In this document: piece after piece, positions 13,717-33,398 of the stretch | Numbering within the stretch: position 1 is the first letter of the stretch | Layout: each line of letters opens with the position of its first letter | Virus record (IMG/VR): IMGVR_UViG_3300042516_000180 | Coordinates: 1-35,568 of that record | Strand: one strand, 5' to 3' | Length of the DNA: 35,568 bases | Source: a virus | Position numbers and translations under genes: made by a program | Notes under the pieces: generated by a model | What the model saw: the letters and a program-made list of their open reading frames with translations, nothing else | The model's database searches: none | Told to the model about the DNA's origin: nothing

Positions 13717-13725
13717 GATGACTCC

Positions 13726-13977: not shown

Positions 13978-13989
13978 AAAAACCTTTCT

Positions 13990-14003
13990 GCCCCCGTAGG
14001 GGC
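13990..14003 (-). terminator. GCCCC-UACG-GGGGC hairpin between two leftward genes
   Basis: On the minus strand GCCCC-TACG-GGGGC forms a 5-bp GC stem capped by a UNCG-class tetraloop, 6 nt downstream of the 14009 stop and upstream of the lipoprotein start. No strong T run follows, so it may be a weak terminator or an mRNA-stability element. The same hairpin recurs at 17922-17937. Confidence 0.6.
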
Positions 14004-14008
14004 GTTGA

Positions 14009-14287
14009 TTAACGGGCTGTAACTTTAAGGGTAATAACTGCGGTGGTCTTGGTGTGTTTTTCAATTAACTCAGCAGGTACATTCGCTTCTGCGTACACAG
14101 CTTTGTTATCTACGGTCTTGCGCTGGGAGAGGGTTACACAGGCTTTGTAAAAGTTACCCTCGATGTGACCCTCATCCTGCTTGAGTTCGGTCTTGAGTGC
14201 TTCTGCTTGGGCTTCTAGATCAGCGATCTGTGCCAAGAGCATACCTAATTGGTCAACTTTAGTTACTTTGATGTCTACAACTTGCAT
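14009..14287 (-). CDS. Small coiled-coil early protein
   Basis: 92 residues. N-terminal VVDIKVTKVDQLGMLLAQIA leads into a helix rich in Ala/Glu/Lys (ADLEAQAEALKTEL) and a beta-type second half (ACVTLSQRKTVDNKAVYAEA). It is the first gene of the leftward unit driven by the promoter at 14330-14359. It has an AAAGGAG ribosome-binding site and the leader hairpin also found before 17754. Function unknown. Confidence 0.5.
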   Translation of the reverse strand: MQVVDIKVTKVDQLGMLLAQIADLEAQAEALKTELKQDEGHIEGNFYKACVTLSQRKTVDNKAVYAEANVPAELIEKHTKTTAVITLKVTAR

Positions 14288-14306
14288 TTGATTCTCCTTT
14301 TCTATC

Positions 14307-14325
14307 TCACTCCCCGATGGAGTAA
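14307..14325 (-). promoter_or_regulatory. 5' leader hairpin
   Basis: Minus-strand TTACTCC-ATCGG-GGAGTGA forms a 7-bp stem that lies at about the predicted transcript start, directly before AGATAGAAAAGGAG. A hairpin with different bases but the same placement occurs at 17715-17732. It may protect the mRNA 5' end or gate the ribosome-binding site. Confidence 0.5.
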
Positions 14326-14329
14326 TGAC

Positions 14330-14359
14330 AGTATAAGTTAAGTAATCTTAACAATGCAA
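14330..14359 (-). promoter_or_regulatory. Leftward promoter with operator in the spacer
   Basis: On the minus strand, TTGCAT (-35) and TATACT (-10) are 18 nt apart. The spacer holds GTTAAGATTACTTAAC, a perfect 6+6 palindrome (plus-strand 14337-14352). The same operator type is found at 16989, 17023, 17690 and 23811. A repressor bound here would cover the RNA-polymerase site. It drives the 14287-13053 unit. Confidence 0.65.
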
Positions 14360-14475
14360 GGATTATTTATTAGGACAAACCCTAGGTTTTGCAAAAAAAC
14401 ATCAGGGCAGTATTTGGCAGTTACTACGAATAGGGCAGAAAGCCGCAAAATTCCCTAATTACTGCATCCTACTGT

Positions 14476-14560
14476 GGCGGCTTAACGCCCTTAAATAAGT
14501 GGGGTACTCACATTCCCGTATGTGAAGCGTGTCTGCTTTCCCCCGTTCCCGTGAAGGAAC
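14476..14560 (-). other. Three consecutive hairpins in the gap after the RecB-like gene
   Basis: The 278-bp gap 14288-14565 contains, apart from the promoter, three simple stems: 14545-14560 (GTTCC/GGAAC), 14508-14525 (TCACAT/ATGTGA, perfect) and 14476-14489 (GGCG/CGCC). All lie downstream of the leftward 14566 gene. None has a convincing U run on the minus strand. They could be a structured 3' end or a weak terminator. Nothing coding is evident. Confidence 0.35.
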
Positions 14561-14565
14561 TTTAA

Positions 14566-15309
14566 TTATAAGCCGTTCTTGATTTGGTAAACACGCAGTA
14601 AATGCTCAAAGCACTCCCAGCCCTTTTGAAGCCGATCCTGCTCAATTTCAATCAATTTGACTTGGTTAGTCGTACCGTTGACAAACACGATAGCGCACCG
14701 TGCGCTGGGTACTCCTAGACCCTCACGGTAGGCGGCTAACTGCATCTCATGCTCAAAATACACATCCACCTTATCTAAGTCGGTATCTTTGGTCTTAAAG
14801 TCCACTACAAAGCCCGCTGTGGACATTAGATCGCATTTACCGCCATACCCTAGCGGATGCCCAAACGACTTCTCAGAAAGCCATAGCTGGCTTCCAAAGG
14901 CGTTGTCAAGGGTTTCCACAATGGTATTGATGTACGGTGGCTTTTCAGGCATATACACACCCTCAAACCAGCTTTGGATAATGGCGTGGATTGCAGTACC
15001 CCGCTCTGCCGCTTCCCTGCCCGTAGCTTTACTATCCTGCATCACCCTAGCCAACCAGTCTGATTCGGGTTCATCAGGAAGTCTAGGCAGGGTCAGGGCG
15101 GCTAAGAGGACTTGTTGTTGCTTCCATGTATCAAGCCCTGCTTTCGATAGCATTCCGTTAATTGTTGTAACACTTGGCAAAAGTCCGAGTTTCCGTGCGT
15201 CACGGAGCGTTGTTGCCCGTTCCCCAGTCTTGCCGATGGTAGTGTAGGCTGGAGTGCCGTCTTTCGTATACCAATGACCTGATTCACTTAGTTTCTCCTT
15301 GACAATCAT
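14566..15309 (-). CDS. RecB-type PD-(D/E)XK exonuclease
   Basis: 247 residues. Nuclease motifs are in order: GTAIH (H108), a Glu near residue 146, GYGGKCDL (D160), VVDFKTK (D170, K172) and EHEMQLAAY (Q190, Y194). This is the RecB/Cas4/lambda-exo-like pattern of metal-dependent DNA exonucleases, and the family is common in phage recombination or replication modules. It follows an SSB-like gene (8 nt gap), forming a plausible end-processing and annealing set. A proteobacterial-type ribosome-binding site is present upstream. Confidence 0.75.
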   Translation of the reverse strand: MIVKEKLSESGHWYTKDGTPAYTTIGKTGERATTLRDARKLGLLPSVTTINGMLSKAGLDTWKQQQVLLAALTLPRLPDEPESDWLARVMQDSKATGREAAERGTAIHAIIQSWFEGVYMPEKPPYINTIVETLDNAFGSQLWLSEKSFGHPLGYGGKCDLMSTAGFVVDFKTKDTDLDKVDVYFEHEMQLAAYREGLGVPSARCAIVFVNGTTNQVKLIEIEQDRLQKGWECFEHLLRVYQIKNGL

Positions 15310-15317
15310 GTTAATCC

Positions 15318-15935
15318 TTAAAATGGGGGTGGGCCAAAATTATCATCATCGGCTAGTTTAGGCGCATTTTTTTCACGCTCCTGCTGACCACGCCACTCGC
15401 TAGACTCCGCTATCTTTTCTTTGTAATACTTGGGTAGCGCATCGTACTCTTCCTGCTTGTAGCTTTGTAGCCAAAAGATTTTAGTGGGGTTTATGCCATC
15501 AGGCTGGGCGTTACGCAATGCGCTAGGCACAGGGCTAATGCCGCTGATGTTGGCGTACTTGCCATCCTCGGAGTGCGTGATATTGACCATGCAAAACTTA
15601 CCCAATAGGTTCTTGAGGTCAAAGTTCTTGCGGTCTTCAGGGGTCATTTTTTTATTTGACCACGCCTCTAGGTCTTGGCGTAACCGTGCTTGATCACCTA
15701 GGCTGACTGTATAACGCTTAGATACGATTAAAGGTTTACCATCGTCTGTCTGTAATGGCTGACCCGCATCGTCATCACCGTGCAGTTCCCAAGTCAATAC
15801 GACCTTGTGCATGATCTTGGTTTCTCCAGCCCATTCGGTGGCTTGATGACCTAGGTCAATGATGGAATAAAGGCGAGCCATATGCAGACCTGCTGGCGCA
15901 ATCTTAAAGTCTTTTTGGTTATCGGAAATAATCAT
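15318..15935 (-). CDS. ssDNA-binding-like protein with acidic C-terminal tail
   Basis: 205 residues. A beta-rich core (VVLTWELHG, ISKRYTVSLG-like strands, GKFCMVNITH) suggests an OB-type fold. A disordered tail ends in ADDDNFGPPPF, the acidic, phenylalanine-capped tip typical of SSB and gp2.5-like proteins, which recruits partners. It is encoded between a ParB/DGQHR-like protein and a RecB-type exonuclease; overlap with the upstream gene is 4 nt. Related phage proteins are often labelled DNA-binding or unknown. Confidence 0.55.
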   Translation of the reverse strand: MIISDNQKDFKIAPAGLHMARLYSIIDLGHQATEWAGETKIMHKVVLTWELHGDDDAGQPLQTDDGKPLIVSKRYTVSLGDQARLRQDLEAWSNKKMTPEDRKNFDLKNLLGKFCMVNITHSEDGKYANISGISPVPSALRNAQPDGINPTKIFWLQSYKQEEYDALPKYYKEKIAESSEWRGQQEREKNAPKLADDDNFGPPPF

Positions 15936-16726
15936 TTTTTCTCTTTCGTTAATAGGTTTCTAACAATGTTGCGGCAATACGCATTAGCGGCAGTTTCTTC
16001 TGAGTCACTAATCTGTAAGCGTGAAACATCCTTAAACTCAGGGTTAAATACTTTTAGACCCCGTGCTAGTAGGTTTGCCTTATTGTTTGCGGTAATCCTG
16101 CCATCGGTAACCTGACGGATAAAGTTTTGCGCTACATTCGGCAATTCGTTAAATTGCTGGTGGCATAGGTTTGCGTATAGTTCCTTGACATAGTTTTGGT
16201 TATACCCGTCAAGGATTAGGCAGACTGCCGCAGTACGCATAGGAGCAGACGAATAGACTTTAATCTGCTTGCCGCAATACTCGACTAGGCTGTCAGATAC
16301 CTCGCCCACCCCCGTGTTATATATCTCTAAGCACTCTTCTGCGCTGGTGACTGAATTGCCACCGTAGACCAATCTAGCCAAGATGCGGCATACCTCGGTA
16401 GTCCTAACATTGATGCCTGTCAGGTCTGACAATGTGCGCTTGATGCCGTTATCTAAGACCTTGTACGCATCGTTACTTACGCCAGTAGTGACCAGCAATT
16501 TCACGGGTGTATCGGCTTCTACAATAGCTTCTAGGCGGTGCTGACCGTCAATCAGTTTGCCTGACTCAGAGAATGCTACGCCCTGATGGGTCAGTATCCA
16601 GTCACCACGCTTGATTGCCTTGGCTAGACACGACACATACCAGCCCCTCTGTTGGCGGTTATCGGTGTTTTTGGATAGATACAACTTCGCCATTTCGGGC
16701 GTTACTAGCTGTACTTGTGGGTTCAT
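15932..16726 (-). CDS. ParB/DGQHR-domain protein
   Basis: 264 residues. GKLIDGQHRLEAIV (residues 57-69) is the diagnostic motif of ParB-like/DGQHR proteins, which use NTP or act on DNA in diverse mobile elements. It is preceded by a helix (LAKAIKRGDW) and an ILTHQGVAFS strand. The C-terminal two thirds are helical. It is in an operon with nuclease and SSB-like genes, so a replication or partition-like role is suggested. Start ATG overlaps the previous gene's stop by 4 nt. Confidence 0.65.
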   Translation of the reverse strand: MNPQVQLVTPEMAKLYLSKNTDNRQQRGWYVSCLAKAIKRGDWILTHQGVAFSESGKLIDGQHRLEAIVEADTPVKLLVTTGVSNDAYKVLDNGIKRTLSDLTGINVRTTEVCRILARLVYGGNSVTSAEECLEIYNTGVGEVSDSLVEYCGKQIKVYSSAPMRTAAVCLILDGYNQNYVKELYANLCHQQFNELPNVAQNFIRQVTDGRITANNKANLLARGLKVFNPEFKDVSRLQISDSEETAANAYCRNIVRNLLTKEKK

Positions 16727-16968
16727 TTTAGATTCCTTGCTAAAAGGTTATTGGTATCTACCAACATATTCCAAAGCATTTGACCCGAATTTGACATACG
16801 GTTAACTGGCGCAAAGCCACAACCATAGCGCAGTAAGTCGATTTGTTCCTTGGAAAGATCAGAGCCGCCCTCTAGTACATCAAAGATTTTTTCTAGCTGA
16901 CCCTGCAATTGAAGTAAGTCATTTGTTTGCGATTCTATTTCACTCATAAGAGTTTCTCCTGTTATCAC
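16723..16968 (-). CDS. Unknown early protein, first gene of leftward operon
   Basis: 81 residues, helical, acidic at the N-terminus (LQGQLEKIFDVLEGGSDLSK near residues 20-39). No recognised motif. It follows the promoter at 16987-17015 with AGGAG about 6 nt upstream of the ATG, so it is the first leftward early product. Confidence 0.5.
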   Translation of the reverse strand: MITGETLMSEIESQTNDLLQLQGQLEKIFDVLEGGSDLSKEQIDLLRYGCGFAPVNRMSNSGQMLWNMLVDTNNLLARNLK

Positions 16969-16986
16969 GGCACATACCGTACAACC

Positions 16987-17015
16987 ATATTAACCTAACT
17001 TAACACAATGTGCAA
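16987..17015 (-). promoter_or_regulatory. Leftward early promoter with operator
   Basis: Minus-strand -35 TTGCAC (17010-17015) and -10 TAATAT (16987-16992) are 17 nt apart. Operator GTTAAGTTAGGTTAAT (plus-strand 16989-17004) overlaps the -10 by 4 nt. The same register is seen at 23809-23837. It drives the 16968-14566 operon and lies back-to-back with the repressor gene. Confidence 0.7.
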
Positions 17016-17022
17016 GAAATAT

Positions 17023-17038
17023 GTTAAGATTACTTACA
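17023..17038 (+). promoter_or_regulatory. Operator abutting the repressor start codon
   Basis: GTTAAGATTACTTACA is close to the perfect palindrome at 14337 (15 leading bases identical to its reverse complement, save the last few). Its last base is the A of ATG 17038. A candidate -10 TAAGAT (17025-17030) with -35 TTAACA-like bases farther upstream would give a start at or near the ATG. This suggests autoregulation and perhaps a leaderless mRNA, as for lambda cI. Confidence 0.5.
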
Positions 17039-17259
17039 TGAACTCAGTCGCTATTATTCGTTTATTGGGTGGGCCAACCAAAGTAGCTAAGATGCTAGGC
17101 ATCAGCGTACCTGCGGTATCCATGTGGCAAAACGGAGATATACCGCATGACAAGCTGGTGATCCTAGCCGCAACCCTTGAGAAACAAAGCCACGGTCTAA
17201 TCACCCGAAAAACTTTATTTCCTGAAACCTATAAATTAATTTGGCCTGAATTAATTTAA
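17038..17259 (+). CDS. Cro/YdaS-type HTH repressor
   Basis: 73 residues from ATG 17038; an upstream ATG at 17008 would place the operator inside the coding sequence and has no better ribosome-binding site. The helix-turn-helix reads GGPTKVAKMLGISVPAVSMW (residues 11-30), as in P22 Cro and YdaS proteins, with a C-terminal IWPEL tail. It is the only DNA-binding regulator apparent in the genome, sits between divergent promoters, and its likely operator recurs five times. No cI partner, integrase or excisionase is seen, so lysogeny cannot be concluded. Confidence 0.75.
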   Translation: MNSVAIIRLLGGPTKVAKMLGISVPAVSMWQNGDIPHDKLVILAATLEKQSHGLITRKTLFPETYKLIWPELI

Positions 17260-17261
17260 TG

Positions 17262-17405
17262 TATACTTGCTGGTAAGCGGATTGAACCCCGTTAGTAACA
17301 TACCAGCCTAAAGCCCTTGAAGGGTAGTTTTTGAGCATTTTGGAAAGGCTGGCTGGTCTTTTCTAAAGTGGGTTCAACTTAGAAACTACTCTTGAAGGGC
17401 TTTTT
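17262..17405 (+). ncRNA. Structured RNA candidate with alternative terminator stem
   Basis: A -10 like TATACT (17262-17267) precedes a transcript that can fold in two ways. Fold 1: TTGAACCC (17282-17289) with GGGTTCAA (17370-17377), enclosing ACCAGCC (17302-17308) with GGCTGGT (17351-17357). Fold 2: 17310-17330 pairs with 17383-17403 for 21 bp with one G.G mismatch and one G.U, followed by TTTTT. The folds interleave, so they are alternatives or a pseudoknot. The terminator-like end and lack of any ORF argue for an attenuator-type or stand-alone small RNA. Confidence 0.55.
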
Positions 17406-17681
17406 CTATTTCCGCTTCGTACTCCAAACGATATTAAGCACCTAGATGGGTGGCGTGGAATAGAACATGGGCTGGTTTACACCTGACAGCAAGCCCCGTA
17501 GACTTAAGTGGGTACTACACAAGTTACAAGGACAATGGTGATAGACAACCTTGTATCGATTGAACACTACCTTAGGGAGCATTAGTTCGGGATCAACTTC
17601 CTGAATGGATGGGGTGCTATCACCTTTGGGATACCTATGACGAAAAAACAACACTAAGGGTATATCCTAATCAAATACCTG
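17406..17681. other. Remainder of the gene-free region, some pairing, unknown
   Basis: No convincing gene. A 70-codon minus-strand frame (17442-17654) is probably spurious. Perfect pairings are GGTGATAG (17537-17544) with CTATCACC (17617-17624), and ACAAGG (17526-17531) with CCTTGT (17549-17554); they interleave. It may continue the RNA above or be a replication origin or packaging region. I cannot tell. Confidence 0.3.
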
Positions 17682-17710
17682 TTGACATAGTTAAGCTACC
17701 TTAATAAACT
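17682..17710 (+). promoter_or_regulatory. Rightward early promoter with operator
   Basis: TTGACA (17682-17687) and TAAACT (17705-17710) are 17 nt apart. The spacer holds operator GTTAAGCTACCTTAAT (17690-17705). It is the strongest -35 in the genome and would drive the rightward early genes from 17754. Confidence 0.75.
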
Positions 17711-17714
17711 GGTA

Positions 17715-17732
17715 TCACTCAATAACGAGTGA
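17715..17732 (+). promoter_or_regulatory. 5' leader hairpin, second copy
   Basis: TCACTC-AATAAC-GAGTGA forms a perfect 6-bp stem at about +1, followed by GATAGAAAAAGGAG. It matches the leader at 14307-14325 in position and flanks but not in stem sequence. Confidence 0.55.
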
Positions 17733-17753
17733 GATAGAAAAAGGAGCAACAAA

Positions 17754-17915
17754 ATGAAATCAAAAGGTCAAGGCAAAAAAGAATTTGTAGTTATGCAATT
17801 AGATGACTACAAAAATGAGTGGAAAGTTTGGAGCGTTCCAGTAACCATCAAACAAGCATATTTTATTCTTGCTCGCAAAAATCCACAGTACTACAAAATT
17901 TCAGAAATCAAATAA
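17754..17915 (+). CDS. Small early protein (53 aa)
   Basis: 53 residues with an AAGGAG ribosome-binding site 8 nt from the ATG. Basic and aromatic (KNEWKVWSVPVTIKQAYFIL, then RKNPQYYKIS). First gene behind the strongest early promoter, so probably one of the first phage proteins made; such genes often redirect the host. No family recognised. Confidence 0.6.
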   Translation: MKSKGQGKKEFVVMQLDDYKNEWKVWSVPVTIKQAYFILARKNPQYYKISEIK

Positions 17916-17921
17916 TTAACC

Positions 17922-17937
17922 AGCCCCTACGGGGGCT
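17922..17937 (+). terminator. AGCCCC-UACG-GGGGCU hairpin after first early gene
   Basis: A 6-bp stem with the same C(UACG)G loop as 13990-14003, starting 7 nt after the stop. It is followed by ACCTTTAAAGG, not a clean U run. It may lower read-through or define the 3' end of the first early mRNA. Confidence 0.6.
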
Positions 17938-17958
17938 ACCTTTAAAGGTGAGATAGAC

Positions 17959-18219
17959 ATGACAATTAAAAAAACCCCAAAAGCCAAGCCGCTTACAAAG
18001 CTACAACAGGCAGAGCGTAAAGCCGCAAACATGGAATATGCGATTTACGATACATACAATAATTTTGATGAATTGTTTGCATTGCTTAGACTTTACAAAG
18101 ATTACATCGAAAGCCCAAATTACAACAAATACACCGCCAAAAGCGCATTAAACGGCATTTTTACTAACGCCATCAGTATGCAGACAACCATGATGGATCA
18201 ATCAGGATTGGAGTGGTAA
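17959..18219 (+). CDS. Unknown small helical protein
   Basis: 86 residues. Lys-rich N-terminus (TIKKTPKAKPLTKLQQAERK), then helices with many Tyr/Asn (YAIYDTYNNFDELFALLRLY). Good GTGAGATAGAC leader. Overlaps the 22-codon gene at 18219 by 1 nt. No function apparent. Confidence 0.5.
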   Translation: MTIKKTPKAKPLTKLQQAERKAANMEYAIYDTYNNFDELFALLRLYKDYIESPNYNKYTAKSALNGIFTNAISMQTTMMDQSGLEW

Positions 18220-18287
18220 TGAAAGATTTATTGGGTGCTTGTTTGCTGGGCGCAATCCTTGGTGCAATGTTGGCATACGGTATCTAA
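18219..18287 (+). CDS. Tiny hydrophobic protein (22 aa)
   Basis: ATG overlaps the previous TAA (TAATG). It reads KDLLGACLLGAILGAMLAY, one short membrane helix. Followed immediately by another TM microprotein. Too short to be sure, but coupled starts on both sides support expression. Confidence 0.4.
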   Translation: MKDLLGACLLGAILGAMLAYGI

Positions 18288-18389
18288 ATGGTAGAAACCG
18301 TCATGACCGTGTTTGCAATTGGCGTGTTTATCATCTTTGCCACGCTTATGTTTATTGCCGCATTTCTTTATTTTTGGATGGACAAATGA
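18288..18389 (+). CDS. Small membrane protein (33 aa)
   Basis: Starts directly after the previous stop. One TM segment over about residues 5-29 (VMTVFAIGVFIIFATLMFIA). It ends in an ATGA overlap with the replication-like gene. Perhaps a membrane microprotein; function unknown. Confidence 0.4.
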   Translation: MVETVMTVFAIGVFIIFATLMFIAAFLYFWMDK

Positions 18390-18763
18390 CCTTTCAAAAT
18401 TTTTACGCTATGTATCCCCGCAAAATGGGGCGCAAAGAGGCTGAAAAAAGCTGGAATAGGCTAACCCCTACCCAGCAAGCAGAATGCCTACAAGCCCTGC
18501 CAAACTACCTTAAATACTGGAAGATCAAGCAGACGCAAAAAGATTTCATCCCGTACCCCGCCACATTTTTGAACCAAGAACGCTGGACTGACGAGATTGA
18601 CTTTGAACCTACCAAAAAGCCCGAACTGCCGTGGTATTCCAGCGAGGAACTTACCGCCCGTAAAGCGCAGGAAGTTAATTGCCCCGCTTATGCGGGCGAG
18701 GCGTGGCAACAATGGCGGGCAAGGATTAGCCAAAAGATCAAGCAGATTGAGGAACAGATGTGA
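18386..18763 (+). CDS. Replication-initiator C-terminal-domain-like protein
   Basis: 125 residues from the ATG coupled (ATGA) to the previous gene; earlier in-frame start at 18239 would run through the two microproteins. FYAMYPRKMGRKEAEKSWNR at the N-terminus, then DFIPYPATFLNQERWTDEID (about residues 52-71), is the domain usually found at the C-terminus of phage replication initiators (O/DnaT-like). Here it stands alone with a short helical tail. It may recruit host helicase loader. No helicase or polymerase gene accompanies it. Confidence 0.6.
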   Translation: MTFQNFYAMYPRKMGRKEAEKSWNRLTPTQQAECLQALPNYLKYWKIKQTQKDFIPYPATFLNQERWTDEIDFEPTKKPELPWYSSEELTARKAQEVNCPAYAGEAWQQWRARISQKIKQIEEQM

Positions 18764-18921
18764 AAAACTTTCGAGATGATTACCTTGTAGATTGGTACAT
18801 CGGGGTAGCCAAAAGGCGTGGCTGGGATGAGGTCGTTAGACTGCTGGCGCAATACCCCAAGGATGAAGAACGCATGAAGATGCTTATTAAAAAAAGGTTA
18901 GCAAATGAACGACCTGTTTGA
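18760..18921 (+). CDS. Small basic protein (53 aa)
   Basis: GTG start overlapping the preceding stop (ATGTGA). It reads KNFRDDYLVDWYIGVAKRRG and continues as a basic helix (EERMKMLIKKRL). Its stop overlaps the next gene by 17 nt. Unknown, perhaps DNA-associated. Confidence 0.5.
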   Translation: MKNFRDDYLVDWYIGVAKRRGWDEVVRLLAQYPKDEERMKMLIKKRLANERPV

Positions 18922-19135
18922 TGACCAGTTTGATTACGACAAAGAATGGGAAGGGATGCCTGAGTTTGTATCCGAAGACCTTAAGTCTATTGCGGCTGTC
19001 ACGGTTAACTTTTTGACCGTAGAAGATATGAACGCATTTAGCGAACTGGTCGGCAGACGCATTACTTTTCAGACCAAAAGCATATTGTTCCCCGTAAAAG
19101 AACCCGTAAAGAAAATCTACATCGATGAATCCTAA
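18905..19135 (+). CDS. Phage protein of the EWxGMPEF type
   Basis: 76 residues. DKEWEGMPEFVSEDLKSIAA at about 12-31, then VTVNFLTVEDMNAFSELVGR and a final SILFP motif. This short domain is seen as an appendage of phage nuclease, ParB-like or methylase proteins, and here it is separate. It may act as a protein-protein or DNA module next to the TAGT gene, with which it overlaps by 11 nt. Confidence 0.5.
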   Translation: MNDLFDDQFDYDKEWEGMPEFVSEDLKSIAAVTVNFLTVEDMNAFSELVGRRITFQTKSILFPVKEPVKKIYIDES

Positions 19136-19955
19136 ACACCCTGTCTACATTATTTCCAAGGGCAGATGGGAAAGCCGCTTAACTAGCAAGTCGCTAGAAA
19201 AGATGGGCGTACCGTACTACATCGCTGTAGAGCCGCAGGAATACGACAACTACGCAGAGGTTATTGACCCAGCCAAGATACTGACTTTGCCGTTTAGTAA
19301 TCATGGCTTTGGTTCTACCCCCGCCCGTAACTGGTGCTGGGATCACTCAATCCAAAACGGACACGCCTACCATTGGATGCTGGATGACAACATCAACGGC
19401 TTTGTACGGCTAAACCGTAATGAGCGTGTACCCGTAGCGTCAGGCACGATATTTAGGGCGGCAGAGGATTTTGTTGAGCGGTACGACAATGTAGCCCAAG
19501 CTGGCTTTGAATACCGATTCTTTGCTGGCGGTAATAGGCGCAAGAAGCCACCGTTTAGGCTAAACAACCGCATCTTTTCCTGTATGTTAATCCGCAATGA
19601 CATACCGTACCGCTGGAGAACCAAGTACAACGAAGACACCATCCTATCGCTGGATTGCTTAGAAGGCGGCTGGTGTACGATCATGTTCCATTGTTTTTTG
19701 CAAAACAAAGCCGCAACACAGACGGTCAAGGGCGGTAACTCAGCCGAGTTTTACGACCACGAAGGTACGCTACCCAAGTCACAGATGTTGGTAGATGAGT
19801 ACCCGCACAGGGCTAAATTGGTGTGGCGTTATGACCGCTGGCATCACGAAGTTAGCTACGATGGATTTGAAAAGAATATGTTGAAAAAGAAGGAAGGGAT
19901 AGTTATTCCCAAGGGCGTAAACAATTACGGAATGAAACTAGTGGAGATAACATGA
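19125..19955 (+). CDS. TAGT-type glycosyltransferase (DNA base modification)
   Basis: 276 residues. A GT-A-like pattern: YIISKGRWESRLTSKSLEKM (8-27), VEPQEYDNYAE, FGSTPARNW (62-70), MLDDNI (85-90, a DxD-like metal site), YNEDT (168-172) and a KGGN near residue 203. This is the signature of phage TET-associated glycosyltransferases, a family proposed to add sugars to modified bases. No TET/JBP oxygenase or thymidylate-type hydroxymethylase is encoded here, so the acceptor is unclear. It could act on a host-made or directly on another substrate. Confidence 0.7.
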   Translation: MNPKHPVYIISKGRWESRLTSKSLEKMGVPYYIAVEPQEYDNYAEVIDPAKILTLPFSNHGFGSTPARNWCWDHSIQNGHAYHWMLDDNINGFVRLNRNERVPVASGTIFRAAEDFVERYDNVAQAGFEYRFFAGGNRRKKPPFRLNNRIFSCMLIRNDIPYRWRTKYNEDTILSLDCLEGGWCTIMFHCFLQNKAATQTVKGGNSAEFYDHEGTLPKSQMLVDEYPHRAKLVWRYDRWHHEVSYDGFEKNMLKKKEGIVIPKGVNNYGMKLVEIT

Positions 19956-20281
19956 GAGAGATAGACCCAAACCGCTGTATAGACTTTATCCTTGATAACG
20001 CTGGCAAGTACGCATCTGCGAAGGGTGAGTTAGCCCAGCTAGAAACCTATAAGAGTTCGCTTAAGGCCATAATGATGCAGAAGTCAGGCGAACAGACAAT
20101 CGGGGCGCAGGAACGGGAAGCATACGCCAGCCAAGACTACCAAGACTTGTGCAAAGCTATTGGTGCGGCTACCGAAAATGTCGAAAAGCTTAAGTGGGAA
20201 CTAGAAGCCGCAAGACTGCGCCATGCTACATGGCAAACTTTAGAAGTATCAAACCGTAACCAAGATCGGATATTAAAATGA
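19952..20281 (+). CDS. Unknown coiled-coil early protein
   Basis: 109 residues, helical. A Glu/Lys-rich helix (AKGELAQLETYKSSLKAIMM at 23-42) and ATENVEKLKWELEAARLRHA near 72-91 suggest an antiparallel coiled coil, somewhat like Gam/host-nuclease inhibitors. Such proteins accompany recombination genes in related phages. Overlaps the TAGT gene by 4 nt and the next by 4. Confidence 0.5.
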   Translation: MREIDPNRCIDFILDNAGKYASAKGELAQLETYKSSLKAIMMQKSGEQTIGAQEREAYASQDYQDLCKAIGAATENVEKLKWELEAARLRHATWQTLEVSNRNQDRILK

Positions 20282-20445
20282 TTACCCTAACAGAAGAATT
20301 TTTAATCTTAAAAACTTTGACCCGTATGTATGACGATGCCCTTAAAAACAACAACGCCATGCTGATGATGGAGATAGCCGTAGACATTGCTGAATGCGCT
20401 GAAAAGCTAGAACAAGCCAGCGTGGATCATGCCAATGTATCGTAA
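20278..20445 (+). CDS. Small acidic helical protein (55 aa)
   Basis: ATG overlaps the previous stop (ATGA). It reads ITLTEEFLILKTLTRMYDDA, then acidic helices. Overlaps the zinc-protein gene by 17 nt. Function unknown. Confidence 0.45.
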   Translation: MITLTEEFLILKTLTRMYDDALKNNNAMLMMEIAVDIAECAEKLEQASVDHANVS

Positions 20446-20725
20446 TAAAAGTCTATTAGAAATTGTTAGAAGCTTTCCTTGCACTAACTGCGGGGCTGTC
20501 GATGGCACAGTAGTAGCCGCACATTCAAATCAACTTAGGGATGGTAAAGGTCGTGGAATCAAAGCGCATGATTACAGAATTGCCGCAATGTGTTACACCT
20601 GTCACGCAGAAATTGACCAAGGGGCAACACTCAGCAAAGCGGAGAGAGTGGAATGTTGGGAAGAAGCGCACAGAAAAACGATTGCCTTGTTATTTGAATC
20701 AGGGTTTTTATATACCAAGTTTTGA
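20429..20725 (+). CDS. DUF1364-type zinc/HNH-like protein
   Basis: 98 residues. C18-x-x-C21 and C55-x-x-C58-H59 with H32 form a zinc-binding set, arranged as in the phage DUF1364 (Ref/NinG-like nuclease related) family: VVAAHSNQLRDGKGRGIKAH, then AMCYTCHAEIDQGATLSKAE. It sits directly before RusA, as recombination genes often do. A second in-frame ATG (20435) could also start it. Confidence 0.7.
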   Translation: MPMYRNKSLLEIVRSFPCTNCGAVDGTVVAAHSNQLRDGKGRGIKAHDYRIAAMCYTCHAEIDQGATLSKAERVECWEEAHRKTIALLFESGFLYTKF

Positions 20726-20729
20726 AGAA

Positions 20730-20822
20730 ATGACGCAAGACGCTGTGGAATTGTTAAACTCTCTTAATGTTGATCCTGACTCTACCTTTGCCGCCTACCG
20801 TAAACCACTACATAAAAAGTAG
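20730..20822 (+). CDS. Possible 30-codon coupling ORF
   Basis: 30 residues (TQDAVELLNSLNVDPDSTFA ...), overlapping the start of RusA by 56 nt. A GAAGAA lies just upstream. It could couple translation into rusA, or be chance. I keep it only as a weak candidate. Confidence 0.2.
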   Translation: MTQDAVELLNSLNVDPDSTFAAYRKPLHKK

Positions 20823-21150
20823 TGGGCATAGGCGTTATCTAAGCAAGGAAGCTATTGAATTTAAAAAACAAGTAGCTGACTATGTAGCCGAGTACAGAGT
20901 GCCAAAGCTGGGCGATGCCCGCATAGAAATGAAAATAGTTATTCATTTTGCCAATAAGCGTAGGCAAGATTTGGACAATCGTGTCAAGTCACTTTGGGAT
21001 GCATTAGGCGGCAACGGTGCTGGGGTGTTTGACGATGACAGCCAAATTGATGTGTTATTTTTGCAGAGAGGCGCAATAAAAAAAGGCGGTGGATGCCTTG
21101 TTTATATCGACATTCTTGATAAAATAGAGGAAACTACACCCATTACATAA
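20767..21150 (+). CDS. rusA: RusA-family Holliday junction resolvase
   Basis: 127 residues, the family's usual length. LILTLPLPPTVNHYIK at the N-terminus, then RRQDLDNRVKSLWDAL with D68/D70 and D78, and GVFDDDSQIDVL (D89-D91), the acidic catalytic set of RusA. It cuts four-way junctions in replicating or recombining DNA before packaging. It follows the DUF1364-like gene and precedes an unrelated small gene. Confidence 0.85.
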   Translation: MLILTLPLPPTVNHYIKSSGHRRYLSKEAIEFKKQVADYVAEYRVPKLGDARIEMKIVIHFANKRRQDLDNRVKSLWDALGGNGAGVFDDDSQIDVLFLQRGAIKKGGGCLVYIDILDKIEETTPIT

Positions 21151-21158
21151 GGATTTGT

Positions 21159-21515
21159 ATGGAAAACTGTGCGTTATTCCTAGCAACATTACTACACTCA
21201 GCGACCAATACGCATTTTTTCCATTGGTCTACTGATTCTTACGCCAAACACAAAGCACTTGCAAAGTATTACGACAGTATCATTGATTTAACGGATGCTT
21301 TTGCCGAATCCTATATGGGCAAATACGGTAAGTTCACCAGCTTTCCAAGCGTTTACCACCAACCTAAAGACCCAATCCGCTACATGGAGTCATTGCAAAG
21401 CTTTGTAAAAGAAGCCCGCATGGAATTACCTCAAGACAGCGAACTACAAAACATTGTTGATGAGATCGCTGACCTTATAAATGCCACCGCATACAAACTT
21501 AAGTTCTTGAAATAA
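21159..21515 (+). CDS. Dps/ferritin-like small protein (DUF5856-like)
   Basis: 118 residues. LLHSATNTHFFHWSTDSYAK then HKALAKYYDSIIDLTDAFAE (His/Asp/Glu-rich helices, about 11-50) resembles ferritin-like four-helix proteins, and the run is typical of the phage DUF5856 group. Whether it binds metal or DNA is not known. AAGGATTTGT separates it from rusA. Confidence 0.5.
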   Translation: MENCALFLATLLHSATNTHFFHWSTDSYAKHKALAKYYDSIIDLTDAFAESYMGKYGKFTSFPSVYHQPKDPIRYMESLQSFVKEARMELPQDSELQNIVDEIADLINATAYKLKFLK

Positions 21516-21525
21516 AAGGATATTT

Positions 21526-21711
21526 ATGCCATTAGATAAATCAGGTAGCAAGGAATCTGTAGGTAAAAATTACGACAAAGAGCGTCAATCGGGCAAGTCT
21601 AAAAAACAAAGTCTAGCGATTGCTTTAAATGTTGAGCGTGAGAACGCCAAGGGTAGCCGTAAAGCCAAGCTGGAAGACGCATACGCTAAGTACATTGAGG
21701 AAAAAGCATGA
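21526..21711 (+). CDS. Small basic phage protein
   Basis: 61 residues. PLDKSGSKESVGKNYDKERQ and a Lys-rich helix that is common in small phage proteins (KKQSLAIALNVERENAKGSR). Likely nucleic-acid associated by charge; function unknown. Overlaps the next gene by 4 nt. Confidence 0.5.
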   Translation: MPLDKSGSKESVGKNYDKERQSGKSKKQSLAIALNVERENAKGSRKAKLEDAYAKYIEEKA

Positions 21712-21974
21712 GTCGAAGGGATGACATTCGTGCCGCAGTAGAAAAGCACGATAAACCCATTCCTAAGACAACAACGGGCAAGGATAAGAATTACTTGCCC
21801 ACAGAGCAGGGCGCAGGTATGACCGCCAAAGGTAGAGCGGCATACAATCGTAAAAACAACGCCAACTTACAAGCACCTCAATCAAGTGGCCCACGGCACG
21901 ATAGTTTTTGTGCAAGGTCAAAAGGCTGGACAGGTGAGCGTGGTAAGGCGGCTAGAGCAAGGTGGAAATGCTAA
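21708..21974 (+). CDS. Small basic protein (DUF6321-like)
   Basis: 88 residues. GAGMTAKGRAAYNRKNNANL (about 39-58), then SFCARSKGW and a C-terminal Cys (ARARWKC). This motif is shared by small phage proteins that occur in runs like this one. Role unknown. Overlaps the next gene by 1 nt (TAATG). Confidence 0.6.
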   Translation: MSRRDDIRAAVEKHDKPIPKTTTGKDKNYLPTEQGAGMTAKGRAAYNRKNNANLQAPQSSGPRHDSFCARSKGWTGERGKAARARWKC

Positions 21975-22156
21975 TGAAAGACGGACTATATGCCAATATT
22001 CACCGCAAGAGGGCTAGGATCAAGGCGGGATCAGGCGAAAAGATGCGTAAGGTAGGTAGCGAAGGCGCACCATCCGCTAAAGACTTTAAGAAGTCTGCTA
22101 AGACTGCTAAACCTACACGCAGGGAAATGATTGCTTCTAAGATGAAGGATATGTGA
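21974..22156 (+). CDS. Small basic protein
   Basis: 60 residues from ATG 21974 coupled to the previous stop; a GTG at 21962 also opens the frame. Reads KDGLYANIHRKRARIKAGSG then Lys/Ser/Ala-rich repeats, ending in TRREMIASKMKDM. A common companion of the preceding protein in phages; possibly nucleic-acid associated. Confidence 0.5.
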   Translation: MKDGLYANIHRKRARIKAGSGEKMRKVGSEGAPSAKDFKKSAKTAKPTRREMIASKMKDM

Positions 22157-22302
22157 TGTTTAAAAAAGAAAAGATTAAACCTGAAAACAGCTTGCTTCAG
22201 CCTAAAAAAGAGTCAACGCTTGAAAGACAACAGCGTGAGCGTCTAGAGCGCAGAGCCGCCCTAGCTGACAAACTGAAAGACATGGACAAAGAAGTTAAGT
22301 AA
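22156..22302 (+). CDS. Charged short protein (48 aa)
   Basis: ATG overlaps the previous TGA by 1 nt (TGATG). The sequence is nearly all Lys/Glu/Arg/Leu (TLERQQRERLERRAALADKL at 21-40), a single charged helix. It ends just before the next ATG. Function unknown. Confidence 0.45.
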   Translation: MFKKEKIKPENSLLQPKKESTLERQQRERLERRAALADKLKDMDKEVK

Positions 22303-23607
22303 ATGAATTTAGCTGATGCATTACGGTCGTTTAGCGATAGGGTGGTAAACCTACCTACCGAAGCACAGCGATTTATGTACAACCCCCAAGCATTTACCCA
22401 AATGTTTGGCAGAAACCAGCTACCCAACGAAACAGGGTTTGCTGAAGGCGCAATGGTCGGTGACCGCAAATACGGTAGTGAAAAAGGCTTTCAGCAGGGT
22501 GAACCGCTGGCATTGCCTATAGCCGTAGCATCAATGGGCGCACCACTTGCCGCCCCTGCCGCTAGAGCATTAGCACCCAAAGCCGCAAGCATGGCTGAAG
22601 ATTACCTTGCTAAAATTGGTGGCGTTCAATACATTACCCCGCAGAATAAAGCCCTAGCTGACGCTATCCGCAATAAGCCAATTGGTGAGTTTGATGTGCG
22701 ATTTGACAATAAACGCAAGTCAGACATAGAAAAGATAGCCACTACTGTGCCTGTGGTCGAGCAATTAAACAAAACCCCAATCCCCAAGGTATCGCTGGCA
22801 GACTTTGAGGGTAGACCGTTTATTACCAGTATGTCTGACCGTACTGCCGCTGGCGGTGACTTGCTGGGCGTTAACGATGTTATGTTTAAAAGACCCGTAC
22901 ACCTGTATGGCGGGCAAGACTATATGTTTAACGCACCCAATCAGGTGTGGGCATCAGCACAAAGCGCAGTTAAGCCAATCCTTGAAAACGCCAAACTTCT
23001 TAAGGAAGTTACTGGACAGAATCCGCTATATATCCCTTGGAGAATGGCCCCATCGGGCGGTGACTTTGCTCACATGACGGGTGAAAGTATGCTGGGATAC
23101 GCTGAAGCCGCTATGGGTAAAACAGATAAAAAAGCGTTAAATGCCGCAATTAAAGATTTGATCCCAAGCTGGAAAGGCGTAGATTCTGCCGACAGCATTA
23201 CCCAATACAGAGCCGCCCCCAAGGTCGTAAGGGATTCGATCATGCAGATCATGGATAGGGATTTTAGAAACCTAGGCGGCTTAAACTATGGTCAAGCTAG
23301 ACTATCGGTTACTGATCCACGCCAAATCAATGCTATGGAAGGTGGAATACAAAACATTGGTGAAATTTTTGCAGACCAACCCATGATTATGAAATCAGGT
23401 CACCCATCGTATCCACGGGGCGTGGCAGGTCAAGGGCTGGGAACAATTGACAGAGAACTGAATATCTTTGAACTTTTGCCTAATGTGGTGAAAGAGCGTG
23501 GCATTGCTAACCCAAGAAACCCATCCGATCCTGACCTGCGAGCAATGCAGATGAAGCCGTACTCAGGAATCATTACCGCCAAGATGTTACGGGATCTAGG
23601 GCTTTAA
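22303..23607 (+). CDS. Large unknown protein, possibly virion-associated
   Basis: 434 residues. N-terminal part contains a PQAFTQMFGRNQLP segment and an Ala/Pro-rich hydrophobic stretch (LALPIAVASMGAPLAAPAAR, 66-85). The rest is mixed alpha/beta, with PFITSMSDRTAAGGDLLGVN and a later FADQPMIMKSGHPSYPRG. I see no catalytic signature that I can name. Size and position at the end of the early/middle run, before the leftward 23604 gene, fit an internal virion or host-interaction protein. Its stop is interleaved with that of the convergent 23604 gene. Confidence 0.5.
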   Translation: MNLADALRSFSDRVVNLPTEAQRFMYNPQAFTQMFGRNQLPNETGFAEGAMVGDRKYGSEKGFQQGEPLALPIAVASMGAPLAAPAARALAPKAASMAEDYLAKIGGVQYITPQNKALADAIRNKPIGEFDVRFDNKRKSDIEKIATTVPVVEQLNKTPIPKVSLADFEGRPFITSMSDRTAAGGDLLGVNDVMFKRPVHLYGGQDYMFNAPNQVWASAQSAVKPILENAKLLKEVTGQNPLYIPWRMAPSGGDFAHMTGESMLGYAEAAMGKTDKKALNAAIKDLIPSWKGVDSADSITQYRAAPKVVRDSIMQIMDRDFRNLGGLNYGQARLSVTDPRQINAMEGGIQNIGEIFADQPMIMKSGHPSYPRGVAGQGLGTIDRELNIFELLPNVVKERGIANPRNPSDPDLRAMQMKPYSGIITAKMLRDLGL

Positions 23608-23789
23608 TACAGATATTCAGGTTTAAATTGATTCGCTACCTGCTCGCCAAAGCGATGTGTCAAGAAGTTACAAACAGATTCATGTGTCACCTGCTCGATA
23701 CCTGACGCAATACAGTAGGTTTCATGTAAGGTAAGAGCATCAAGCATAGCTTTAGGCATTGGAACATCAACATTAACAGTCGGGGTCAT
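23604..23789 (-). CDS. Unknown small protein under operator control
   Basis: 61 residues. Pro/Val-rich start (TPTVNVDVPMPKAMLDALTL), then helical with Cys/His. AAGGAG upstream. Isolated single leftward gene with its own operator-containing promoter (23809-23837), which makes it a candidate regulator or immunity-type protein. No family recognised. Confidence 0.5.
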   Translation of the reverse strand: MTPTVNVDVPMPKAMLDALTLHETYCIASGIEQVTHESVCNFLTHRFGEQVANQFKPEYLY

Positions 23790-23808
23790 AATTGCTCCTT
23801 TTAACTAT

Positions 23809-23837
23809 ATATTAACCTAGCTTAACATGGAAATCAA
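23809..23837 (-). promoter_or_regulatory. Leftward promoter with operator
   Basis: Minus-strand -35 TTGATT (23832-23837) and -10 TAATAT (23809-23814), 17 nt apart. The operator GTTAAGCTAGGTTAAT (plus-strand 23811-23826) overlaps the -10 by 4 nt, exactly as at 16987-17015. It serves 23604 and abuts the ATG of the divergent gene 23827. Confidence 0.7.
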
Positions 23838-24540
23838 TACCCTTTGGATAGAGAAGCTATTAAAAAAGCCATTCCATAAGTACAGCTTGTGGGGTGATAA
23901 GAAGTTTTATGATCCGCACCTACACCCAATAGCCAAGGAACTAGAGAATAACTTCCCCGCTATTCAGGCAGAGGTCAAGGAACTATTGAAACGCTATGAT
24001 GAGTTCGCCCACTTCCAAAGCATTAGCCCTGATCAGACCTACATAAGCAACGATGACCGCTGGCGTATGTTCTTTTTCAAGGCGGCTGGCGTTAACTTTG
24101 GCAAGAACAAGCAATTTTGCCCAGTAGCTATGTCAATTGTGGATAAGCACAAGGATGTAATCAGCGCATATATCTCAGTCCTTGGCGCACGGAAAGCTTT
24201 GAATCCGCATGAGGGGCCATGGTCAGGAATCCTTAGAATGCACCTAGGCGTAGTCATCCCTGAATACTTACAATGCGCCCTGCACAACGGTGGAGAGGTT
24301 TACTTTTGGGAAGAAGGCAAGTGCGTACTGTTTGACGATACCTACACACACATGGCATTTAATGATACGGACAGCATAAGAGCAGTATTGTTCCTAGACA
24401 TCATGCGCCCGCTACCCCAGCCGTGGAAATTCATTAACTGGGCAATCCTAAGATTGTCTATCCTATTCCCATATATATGGATACCCTATTTCCGTCACAA
24501 GAAATGGGAGAAGCGGTTTTACAAACAACAAGTTAACTGA
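23827..24540 (+). CDS. AspH/LpxO-like Fe(II)/2-oxoglutarate hydroxylase with membrane anchor
   Basis: 237 residues. The aspartyl/asparaginyl beta-hydroxylase fold is shown by NPHEGPWSGILRMHLGVVIP (126-145, with H128 and H139), CALHNGGEVYFWEEGKCVLF, and DDTYTHMAF (H175), then R185 for 2-oxoglutarate and LFLDIMRPL. The C-terminus has a hydrophobic segment at about 202-221 and a basic tail, as in LpxO, the lipid A 2-hydroxylase. It may hydroxylate lipid A or a protein at the membrane. It starts right after the operator at 23811 and has no visible ribosome-binding site. Confidence 0.7.
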   Translation: MEINTLWIEKLLKKPFHKYSLWGDKKFYDPHLHPIAKELENNFPAIQAEVKELLKRYDEFAHFQSISPDQTYISNDDRWRMFFFKAAGVNFGKNKQFCPVAMSIVDKHKDVISAYISVLGARKALNPHEGPWSGILRMHLGVVIPEYLQCALHNGGEVYFWEEGKCVLFDDTYTHMAFNDTDSIRAVLFLDIMRPLPQPWKFINWAILRLSILFPYIWIPYFRHKKWEKRFYKQQVN

Positions 24541-24544
24541 TAAA

Positions 24545-24560
24545 CTTAATGTATCTTAAT
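24545..24560. promoter_or_regulatory. Degenerate operator-like site upstream of terminase
   Basis: CTTAATGTATCTTAAT (reverse ATTAAGATACATTAAG) keeps the TTAAG-N4-xTTAA spacing of the operators. A weak promoter (TTAACT, 18 nt, TAATCA) could overlap it. It would place the late genes under the same repressor. Confidence 0.3.
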
Positions 24561-24578
24561 CAACTACTTGGATAAGGT

Positions 24579-24872
24579 ATGAGTTCTACTGTAGAAAAGA
24601 CTAGAAAAAAGACAGGCGGGCGTGTTGCAGGTGTGCCTAACAAGTCCACAGCACTCGCTAGAGAGGCGATCGCTAAGTTCGTGGATGGTAACAGCCACAA
24701 GCTACAAGAATGGCTTGAGGAGATCGCTATGAATGAAAAGCTAGGCCCTAAAGTCGCATTCGATTGCTTTATGCAAGTCGCTGAGTACCATGTGCCAAAG
24801 CTTGCCCGTGTAGAGCAGGTGGGAGATGAAACTAAACCCGTAGTCCATATTTATAAGTGGAAAGATGACTGA
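24579..24872 (+). CDS. Terminase small subunit
   Basis: 97 residues, short for the family. A basic GGRVAGVPNKSTALAREAIA (13-32) is the DNA-recognition start common to small terminases of this phage type; FVDGNSHKLQEWLEEIA and an EYHVPKLARVE segment follow. Preceded by GGATAAGG. It would select viral DNA for the large subunit, with which it overlaps by 8 nt. Confidence 0.7.
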   Translation: MSSTVEKTRKKTGGRVAGVPNKSTALAREAIAKFVDGNSHKLQEWLEEIAMNEKLGPKVAFDCFMQVAEYHVPKLARVEQVGDETKPVVHIYKWKDD

Positions 24873-32093: not shown

Positions 32094-33191
32094 ATGGCTG
32101 ACGAATTAGATAGACGGGAACTATTAGAATCTGCGCTAGAACAGGCAGAAGAAGGCAACCTTGAAGCACCTATCGAAAAGGAGATTGAAGTAAATGACGA
32201 TCCAATCCAAGCAGAAAGTAGCGAAGAAGACACCCCTAAAGAAAGTAGTGACCGTGACGAAAAAGGTCGCTTCAAAAGTAAGTCCGAAGAAACCGATAAC
32301 GAAGCCGATCCCGTTGAAGAATCTGAACCTGTGGCAGAAGTTTCTGCTGTGGCTGAAGAAGTAAAACGCCCAACAACTTGGAAGAAAGAGTATGTTGAGA
32401 TTTGGGATAAGATGGAGAAAGGCGAAAAGCTAAACAAGGAAGACTTTGTTAAGTTTGCTGAATACGCTAACCAGCGTGAAGCCGAATACAAAAAAGGTGT
32501 ATCTGCCTACAAAGCAGAAGCTGACAACGCTAGACAGTTAACTGAAGCGATAGGCCCATTCGTTCCTGAACTACAAAAGCACGGCATTCACCCAGTAGCG
32601 TGGATACAAAGTTTAGGTCGGGCGCATTACACATTAGCTAACGGAACTTACGAACAAAAGATAAATGCGTTCAATAGACTTGCCCAAGATTATGGAATAC
32701 AATTAAATTCAGATAGCTTACAAATGCCTGAACAGGCGTATGTAGATCCGTATCAACAGCAGTTAATGCAACAGCTACAGGCAACACAACAGCAGGTGCA
32801 ACAACTGTCAGCGATTCGGGAGCAAGAAGAAAATGCCCGTTTGATGTCAGAAATCGAGCGGGTAAGTAGTAACAAGGAGCGGTTTCCGCACTTTGACATG
32901 GTAAGGGAAGACATGGCTCAATTACTTGAGCGAGGTATAGCCCAAGACCTTGAAACGGCTTATGCAAAAGCGGTGCGTATAAACGATGAAGCGTATAGGT
33001 TAGATCAGGAACGACTCCTAAAATCGACCAGTACCCAAGCATCTAAGGCACAGCAAGTAGCAAAAGCTAAAGCAACTGCTGTTAGTCCGAAGTCCGTTAC
33101 ACCTAGCGGGCAAGTGTCGAAAGCAGATGCAAAGGACAGACGCTCATTGCTGATGGCTAACTTAGCCGATGCAGAGGGCGGTAGGGTTTAA
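32094..33191 (+). CDS. Scaffolding protein
   Basis: 365 residues. Very acidic, disordered N-terminus (residues 1-95, rich in Glu/Ser), central helices (EIWDKMEKGEKLNKEDFVKF, PELQKHGIHPVAWIQSLGRA) and a Gln-rich coiled coil (QQQLMQQLQATQQQVQQLSA at about 220-239), ending in a basic tail. This is the composition of internal scaffolds that shape the prohead. It lies directly before the coat gene, as expected. Confidence 0.7.
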   Translation: MADELDRRELLESALEQAEEGNLEAPIEKEIEVNDDPIQAESSEEDTPKESSDRDEKGRFKSKSEETDNEADPVEESEPVAEVSAVAEEVKRPTTWKKEYVEIWDKMEKGEKLNKEDFVKFAEYANQREAEYKKGVSAYKAEADNARQLTEAIGPFVPELQKHGIHPVAWIQSLGRAHYTLANGTYEQKINAFNRLAQDYGIQLNSDSLQMPEQAYVDPYQQQLMQQLQATQQQVQQLSAIREQEENARLMSEIERVSSNKERFPHFDMVREDMAQLLERGIAQDLETAYAKAVRINDEAYRLDQERLLKSTSTQASKAQQVAKAKATAVSPKSVTPSGQVSKADAKDRRSLLMANLADAEGGRV

Positions 33192-33214
33192 CTTAACTTA
33201 ATAAAGGAAATATC

Positions 33215-33398
33215 ATGGCATTTGCTAACTCAGCAATTACCGATATTATCGCTACTACCATTCAAAGCCGTAGCGGTGTATTGGCCGACAACTTGACGCA
33301 GAACAATGCTGTTCTTCAGCGTCTAAACTCAAAAGGCAATGTACGGCCTTTCAGCGGGGGTAATGTAATCCTCGAGGAAATTATGTACAACGATCCGT
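33215..33398 (+). CDS. Major capsid protein, exon 1
   Basis: Codons 1-61 plus one base of codon 62. ATG 33215 follows AAAGGAAATATC. It encodes the coat N-terminus (SAITDIIATTIQSRSGVLAD ... GGNVILEEIMYNDP). Without splicing, translation would run into the intron and stop at 33422-33424 after 69 residues. The last base, U33398, pairs with G33408 in the intron P1 helix, the usual group I 5' splice mark. Confidence 0.8.

Follow-up and report, generated by a model that had tools for sequence, protein, structure and literature searches.

The operators of phage P22 are clustered in triples. In anti-CRISPR operons, Aca autorepressors, which are small helix-turn-helix (HTH) proteins, restrain the strong promoters from which exchangeable small genes are transcribed early. 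The P22 C2 operator seen in the 2R1J complex, CATTTAAGATATCTTAAATA, contains the core TTAAG-N4-CTTAA. The C1 repressor of the temperate phage P1 has 22 operators scattered over the genome, each asymmetric and 17 bp long; cluster A mycobacteriophages carry as many as 30 stoperators, mostly in one orientation, whose motif drifts with the repressor; and the Cro proteins of the telomere phages PY54 and phiKO2 bind a single operator (PMC4997575, PMC9976882, PMC6550527, PMC9004378, PMC8546580, and PMC4488713). Here, we describe a palindrome that recurs at promoters on both arms of a 35,568-base virus record (IMGVR_UViG_3300042516_000180; this whole stretch is called the window below), together with the 73-residue Cro-type protein encoded at 17038. 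These sites are most likely operators of that protein, which would act as an autorepressor closing host-type promoters on both arms. We infer that the 17038 product binds them.

Set against these systems, the window shows both likenesses and differences. First, as in P22 Cro and C2, the protein belongs to the same family (Pfam P22_Cro and a PDB profile), the operator core is the same, and operators lie at the cro start and the divergent promoter. Unlike in P22, no CI-type partner was found, and the sites are single or paired, on both arms and before late genes. Second, as with P1 C1, one repressor faces many scattered operators, but here each site is a palindrome, and the search for lysogeny genes came up empty. 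Third, as with stoperators, repressor sites occur throughout the genome and the motif drifts with the repressor, but here there are about seven, and they lie within promoters. Finally, the predicted all-helical Cro fold is that of the telomere phages PY54, N15, and phiKO2, whereas several putative operators are present here rather than the single one of PY54 and phiKO2. Cro, P22-type operators, and dispersed operators are known. In the literature searched, from which subscription journals were mostly absent, we recognized no description of this operator or clade, nor of the combination of an orphan Cro, one or two operators per promoter on both arms and before late genes, and a portable promoter-hairpin cassette.

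Operator-like sites in the promoters of the window

A preliminary description of the window had listed six copies of GTTAAG-N4-STTAAY, the last of them called weaker, and all six were found where it placed them. Four fit this consensus exactly, namely, those at 14337 (GTTAAGTAATCTTAAC) and 17690 (GTTAAGCTACCTTAAT) and those at 16989 (GTTAAGTTAGGTTAAT) and 23811 (GTTAAGCTAGGTTAAT) on the minus strand, and the sites at 17023 (GTTAAGATTACTTACA) and 24545 (CTTAATGTATCTTAAT) have two mismatches each. In a check set beforehand, both strands of the window gave 32 matches at up to 2 mismatches, a total that none of 100 shuffles attained (12.9 ± 4.3). Because a consensus should not be judged on its own source sites, a symmetrized weight matrix was built solely from the cro-upstream sites of 22 diverged relatives. 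Scanning with this matrix, a check that the preliminary description had proposed, placed five of its six sites within the top six of the window: 17690 (18.0 bits), 14337 (17.7), 17023 (16.0), 33187 (14.7), 16989 (14.0), and 23811 (14.0). In 200 dinucleotide shuffles, the mean was 0.27 sites at ≥14.03 bits. The fourth-ranking site, at 33187, had been overlooked before. The site at 24545 is indeed weak (10.3 bits, rank 13, with 3.3 expected), which is chance level when it is taken alone, but it is conserved before terS.

The positions of the sites relative to promoter boxes, read from the sequence, also agreed with the preliminary description. Four sites lie with −35 and −10 boxes that are 17 to 18 nucleotides (nt) apart, with a spacing of 18 for 14337 and of 17 each for 16989, 17690, and 23811. 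Two of them, 16989 and 23811, share the same register, each overlapping the −10 box by four bases, and the last base of the 17023 site is the A of the cro start codon. The −10 box of cro, TAAGAT, ends 7 nt before the ATG, and no Shine-Dalgarno sequence was seen; therefore, the cro message is probably leaderless. Among 102 unique segments from the relatives and the window, the promoter boxes scored 8.48 of 12, compared to 7.57 ± 0.07 with shuffled flanks.

A P22-type Cro and the conservation of its putative operators

The gene at the 17023 site had been labeled Cro/YdaS-like. Its product matched Pfam P22_Cro (PF14549) above the curated cutoff (34.4 versus 30.2 bits; E value, 1.8e-8), over residues 5 to 39 only. 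Pfam YdaS_toxin aligned with residues 7 to 65 but stayed below its cutoff (28.0 bits versus 30), although YdaS structures are among the near neighbors of the model. The best PDB profile match was P22 Cro (1rzs, 2.4e-6). A predicted model (predicted local distance difference test score, 86) was all helical with no strands, and its nearest folds in Foldseek were Xfaso1 Cro, YdaS, and N15 Cro; P22 Cro came eleventh, and all E values were weak. The protein is Cro-sized, without a second domain in Pfam.

Comparison with phages outside the clade linked this protein family to the site. In the clade, the recognition helix VPAVSMW goes with TTAAG-N4-CTTAA. Two Manatee Spring phages (L081 and L082) have the helices PAAVSQW and PPAVSQW, and close variants such as TTAAG-N4-CTAAA occur at cro and other promoters; the L082 site at 6197 overlaps the cro start as in the window. 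In Acinetobacter phage Ab1656-2 (L083), whose Cro is 53% identical, the helix is PPSVSGW and the site is TTAGG-N4-CCTAA, with one base changed per half; its copy GTTAGGAAATCCTAAC lies between a CI-type gene and cro. This joint change of helix and site, which rests on three phages, is the best evidence that this Cro family would read the site. Three other phages were compared: Bordetella phage vB_BaM-IFTN9 (L084, 35.5% identity) had no related palindrome that we could find, and Pelagibacter phage HTVC010P (L090) had no strong site (best, 12.5 bits). Methylophilales phage Venkman (L091) gives no covariation test because its best site (13.1 bits at 2542) is not at its annotated Cro/CI-family gene (6495 to 6662).

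The sites were conserved across relatives of the window. Of 132 Cro relatives in viral contigs, we retained the best 80, giving 698,588 bases in 80 loci, and these contained 232 sites at ≥13.9 bits, compared to 1 in the same sequences reversed. At cro itself, where the threshold was 9.5 bits, at least two sites were found in 74 of 74 loci with ≥110 bp upstream, compared to 2 of 4,619 random pieces. Left out of this recount were loci with less upstream sequence and L034, in which cro lacks the standard upstream region; the recount replaces an earlier strict regular-expression count, in which many close relatives had shown one site at most. Sites were also present in the right interval (400 to 1,700 bp right of cro) in 56 of 62 loci and in the left-distal interval (1,500 to 3,600 bp left of cro) in 36 of 36, with none in either reversed control. 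The pattern TTAAS-N4-STTAA occurred 52 times in 15 related records, compared to 3 times for the reversed pattern. Upstream of cro, members of the close group carry the pair ATTAACYTAACTTAAC and GTTAAGATNNCTTA. Members of the diverged group have their upstream site ~57 bp rather than ~34 bp before cro, where it is still mostly ATTAAGNNNNCTTAAA. Homologues of single genes gave the same picture, with a site at the 17690 position in 11 of 11 cases and a site in 29 of 32 homologues of the left-distal gene. In the reverse direction, from DNA pattern to cro, a cro was ≤3.3 kb away in 48 of 70 stretches among the matches listed. This is supportive only, as the stretches include further parts of contigs that were already in the set. 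One stretch, L161:2105-2304, has four operator-like sites inside 200 bp; no cro was found on it.

Several observations weigh against reading the sites as operators of this Cro. First, most relatives are close; since the loci are related, the locus counts would measure consistency and should not be read as independent events. Second, the right-slot site is missing in 6 of 62 loci, the 3 of 32 left-distal homologues without a site are all distant, and 22 of the 70 listed pattern-found stretches have no recognizable cro, by profile either, some of them because they end at a contig edge, and others may be chance matches. Third, a plain consensus scan of 13000 to 25000 found 12 promoter-like pairs, compared to 20.4 in shuffles, so the boxes count as evidence only in combination with the operators and conservation. 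Fourth, the best Foldseek E value was 0.012, none reaching 0.001. Finally, the recognition helix hardly varies inside the clade, which is why the joint change has to be sought in outside phages, and one of these, Ab1656-2, also has a CI-type gene beside its operators.

Table 1. Coordinates of the operator-like sites, promoters, hairpins, and genes in the window
Feature	Position	Strand	Basis or remarks
Symmetric operator, left-distal promoter TTGCAT-18-TATACT	14337..14352	-	Wholly in spacer; −35 at 14354-14359, −10 at 14330-14335
Operator in leftward promoter TTGCAC-17-TAATAT	16989..17004	-	Sequence, weight matrix, relatives
Leftward promoter boxes	16987..17015	-	−35 at 17010-17015, −10 at 16987-16992
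Operator over cro −10 and start codon	17023..17038	+	Weight matrix; at least two sites before cro in 74/74 testable relatives
cro-type repressor gene, 73 amino acids (aa)	17038..17259	+	Pfam P22_Cro, PDB profile; probably leaderless
Operator in right early promoter	17690..17705	+	TTGACA 17682-17687, 17 nt, TAAACT 17705-17710; −10 overlap of one base
Operator in leftward promoter TTGATT-17-TAATAT of 23604-23789	23811..23826	-	−10 at 23809-23814, −35 at 23832-23837; abuts hydroxylase ATG
Weak operator before terS-like gene	24545..24560	+	Overlaps promoter-like TTTACA-17-TAAACT (24518-24546)
Additional operator-like site	33187..33202	+	Between gene 32094-33191 and capsid gene
5′ leader hairpin, left-distal operon	14307..14325	-	Cassette order, covariation
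5′ leader hairpin, leftward operon	16966..16981	-	Cassette order, covariation
5′ leader hairpin, right early operon	17715..17732	+	Cassette order, covariation
First gene behind left-distal promoter, 92 aa	14009..14287	-	Other genes in its place in some relatives
First gene of leftward operon, 74 aa, MSEIESQT	16723..16947	-	One family in 74/74 cases
First gene of right operon, 53 aa, variable slot	17754..17915	+	blastp families
61-aa leftward gene behind operator 23811	23604..23789	-	Site neighborhood in relatives
terS-like gene, 97 aa	24579..24872	+	Named by position before large terminase

Late-gene sites, lifestyle, and alternative explanations

The preliminary description had proposed a compact regulon including the hydroxylase region and perhaps the terminase. 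A compact regulon of the Cro/YdaS-like protein is well supported, and conservation supports extending it to the terminase, where the window's own site is weak; support for the hydroxylase part is weak. Of 70 hydroxylase loci, 46 were looked at, and 15 belonged to this clade, 14 of them with a terS match; the fifteenth, L202, has the downstream site without a terS match, and L209 and L211, in which the 5′ part of the gene is truncated, were left out. A site preceded terS homologues in 14 of 14 loci, at 12.1 to 14.4 bits, and it lay 4 bp past the hydroxylase stop codon in 15 of 15, as CTTAATGTATCTTAAT in 10 and ATTAACTTATCTTAAT in 5. Upstream of the hydroxylase, 12 of 15 loci had no operator, and there the gene follows a co-directional gene. 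A site was present upstream in L195, as in the window, and in a weaker variant of 9.9 bits in L204 and L206. The upstream site goes together with a leftward gene at that place; hence, the most likely target of 23811 is the 61-aa gene on the left and not the hydroxylase, which in most relatives is probably read from further upstream. A duplicated operator flanking the hydroxylase was rejected on the same count of loci. The hydroxylase itself, an Asp/Arg beta-hydroxylase gene (23827 to 24540; PF05118, 1.3e-39), directly precedes the terminase genes, as it does in the 14 related loci with a terS match.

The site at 33187 is found in the same place in L085 to L088 and one gene further along in L089. 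It overlaps a stop codon and is near a ribosome-binding site (RBS), so its conservation may have another cause, which also counts against assigning it to Cro. The capsid gene behind it (33215 to 34452) is split, with residues 1 to 61 of a relative's protein matching 33215 to 33397 and residues 63 to 328 matching 33655 to 34452 in a different frame. The ~254 extra bases occur in no other locus among those compared, and the capsid region had no Rfam match at E values up to 1; an unrecognized intron is possible.

The window and its clade are uncultivated, widespread water phages that are probably virulent. The large terminase shares 41% identity with its HTVC010P counterpart and 42.6% with that of Venkman, and PHROGs matches include structural, lysis, and replication genes; no integrase family was among the PHROGs families listed for the 50 scanned window proteins. 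Side observations were a strong match of 19125 to 19955 to PHROG 842, annotated as beta-glucosyl-HMC-alpha-glucosyltransferase (2.8e-45), which hints at DNA modification, and a PAPS-reductase-like gene (3971 to 4696; 6.1e-28) amid structural genes.

Three other explanations of the sites were weighed. The one that survives best is that the phage is temperate or plasmid-like and that the protein is its immunity repressor, silencing the whole genome through dispersed operators as P1 C1 and stoperators do. A Cro would have no need of the sites before terS and the capsid gene, the single dispersed sites are reminiscent of the 22 of P1 C1, and the gene at 15932 to 16726 has a weak ParB-like match (E value, 0.0012). 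However, the protein is Cro-sized and has no second domain. Moreover, the window and nine related records, which were not rated complete, yielded no Pfam Phage_integrase (serine recombinases were not searched), no CI-type Peptidase_S24, and no second HTH_3 repressor, the HTH_3 matches in 4 of the 10 being cro itself. Thus, neither the CI-type partner nor the integrase or lysogeny module of a lambdoid CI/Cro switch was found in these records. Among 84,980 prokaryote species scanned at one genome per species, Cro relatives appeared on only 3 contigs (L092, L093, and L094), all from metagenome-assembled genomes of unrelated groups (assigned to Spartobacteria, Bacteroidota, and a Nitrosotalea archaeon), and these are probably misbinned phage DNA. 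Since no lysogeny gene or prophage was found, an immunity repressor seems improbable, and the late-gene sites are what keep the idea alive.

Binding of the sites by a host regulator, with the phage borrowing host control, is much harder to sustain. The boxes do look like ordinary host sigma-70 promoters, but the invariable presence of at least two sites before cro (74 of 74 loci) and the match of the site to the operator of the protein's own family, shifting with the recognition helix, favor Cro as the binding protein. Least likely of all is that the sites are AT-rich promoter spacer conserved by close descent only: many relatives are >90% identical at cro and the TTAA overlaps −10-like sequence, but the diverged group keeps its upstream site at another distance, the same site stands before unrelated genes on opposite arms, and the 232 sites compare with a single one in the reversed sequences, whose composition is identical.

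Promoter cassettes, gene slots, and a model for Cro control

Three promoters, those of the left-distal, leftward, and right early operons, share a −35 box, the operator, a −10 box, and a 5′ hairpin that covaries. Behind two of these promoters, the small genes are interchangeable. Across the relatives, 194 such cassettes (118 unique) were collected, usually in the order −35, operator, −10, hairpin at the predicted transcript start, RBS, and start codon, the last 35 to 61 nt past the operator. Some entries were false starts inside cro or had been taken from the wrong site and were later left out. In the window and its relatives, the right slot held 18 blastp families in 59 instances and the left-distal slot held 10 in 47, with two families found in both. 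When one gene each from 10 of the 26 slot families was compared with Pfam, nine had no match, and the tenth matched LPD29. Like Aca, Cro is a candidate small HTH autorepressor of changeable small genes, but the slot genes are not known to act against host defenses, and nearly all of those tested lack a Pfam match.

The leader hairpin was supported by covariation. Its alignment used 33 of 74 unique leaders chosen for variety, which can raise covariation counts, and had 97% of cells paired and 29 two-sided changes, compared to 8.5 in shuffles. The covariation value was 0.468 versus 0.140, reached by none of 500 shuffles and by no slid register; a single division between promoter classes accounts for some of the signal. 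The leader set excluded the leaders of the MTPTV and MPEIK genes, the false starts inside cro, and misread sites. An Rfam scan of the whole window, hairpin included, gave no match. A plain guess is that the hairpin is a 5′ stabilizer, and a bolder one is that it is a nut-like element.

These features suggest how Cro might work. A Cro dimer would bind the palindrome TTAAG-N4-CTTAA, the P22-type core. The 14337 operator lies in the promoter spacer, and those at 16989, 23811, and 17690 fill the spacer and run into the −10 box; at cro the operator spans the −10 box to the start codon, and the one before terS extends over the last part of the −10 box and the transcript start. Because operators occupy these positions, Cro binding should block host RNA polymerase. 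Upon infection, host polymerase would open the promoters, and the early genes of both arms would be made together with Cro. Accumulating Cro would then close its own promoter and the early promoters, acting as a lytic-cycle timer that restricts both the duration and the level of early expression. Where one half of the site is altered (16989, 23811, the family terS site, and 33187), binding would be weaker and closure later, giving a graded shut-off. It is repression, its order in time, and the role of the hairpin that we infer here. The unit of −35, operator, −10, 5′ hairpin, and RBS may serve in related loci as a portable cassette behind which small early genes can be exchanged.

A wider reading, which we offer tentatively and consider somewhat doubtful, is that the orphan Cro is the single master repressor of a modular system. 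A standard unit would stand before two hypervariable slots, one per arm, of unrelated small early genes, perhaps counter-defense genes, and the same operator would stand before late genes. Cro would then be the governor of cargo expression, in the way that Aca governs anti-CRISPR operons, instead of one partner in a lysis-lysogeny switch, and the leader hairpin common to these units would add another level of control.

For phages seen only in metagenomes, the result is a testable regulatory map in which a single DNA word, paired with a 73-residue protein, predicts the main promoters and marks the slots where new early genes arrive. It also poses the puzzle of why a Cro, with operators at early and late genes alike, is retained by a phage in which no lysogeny module is visible. 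Scanning for the cassette is a direct route to small early genes, which are a likely source of host-takeover or counter-defense proteins.

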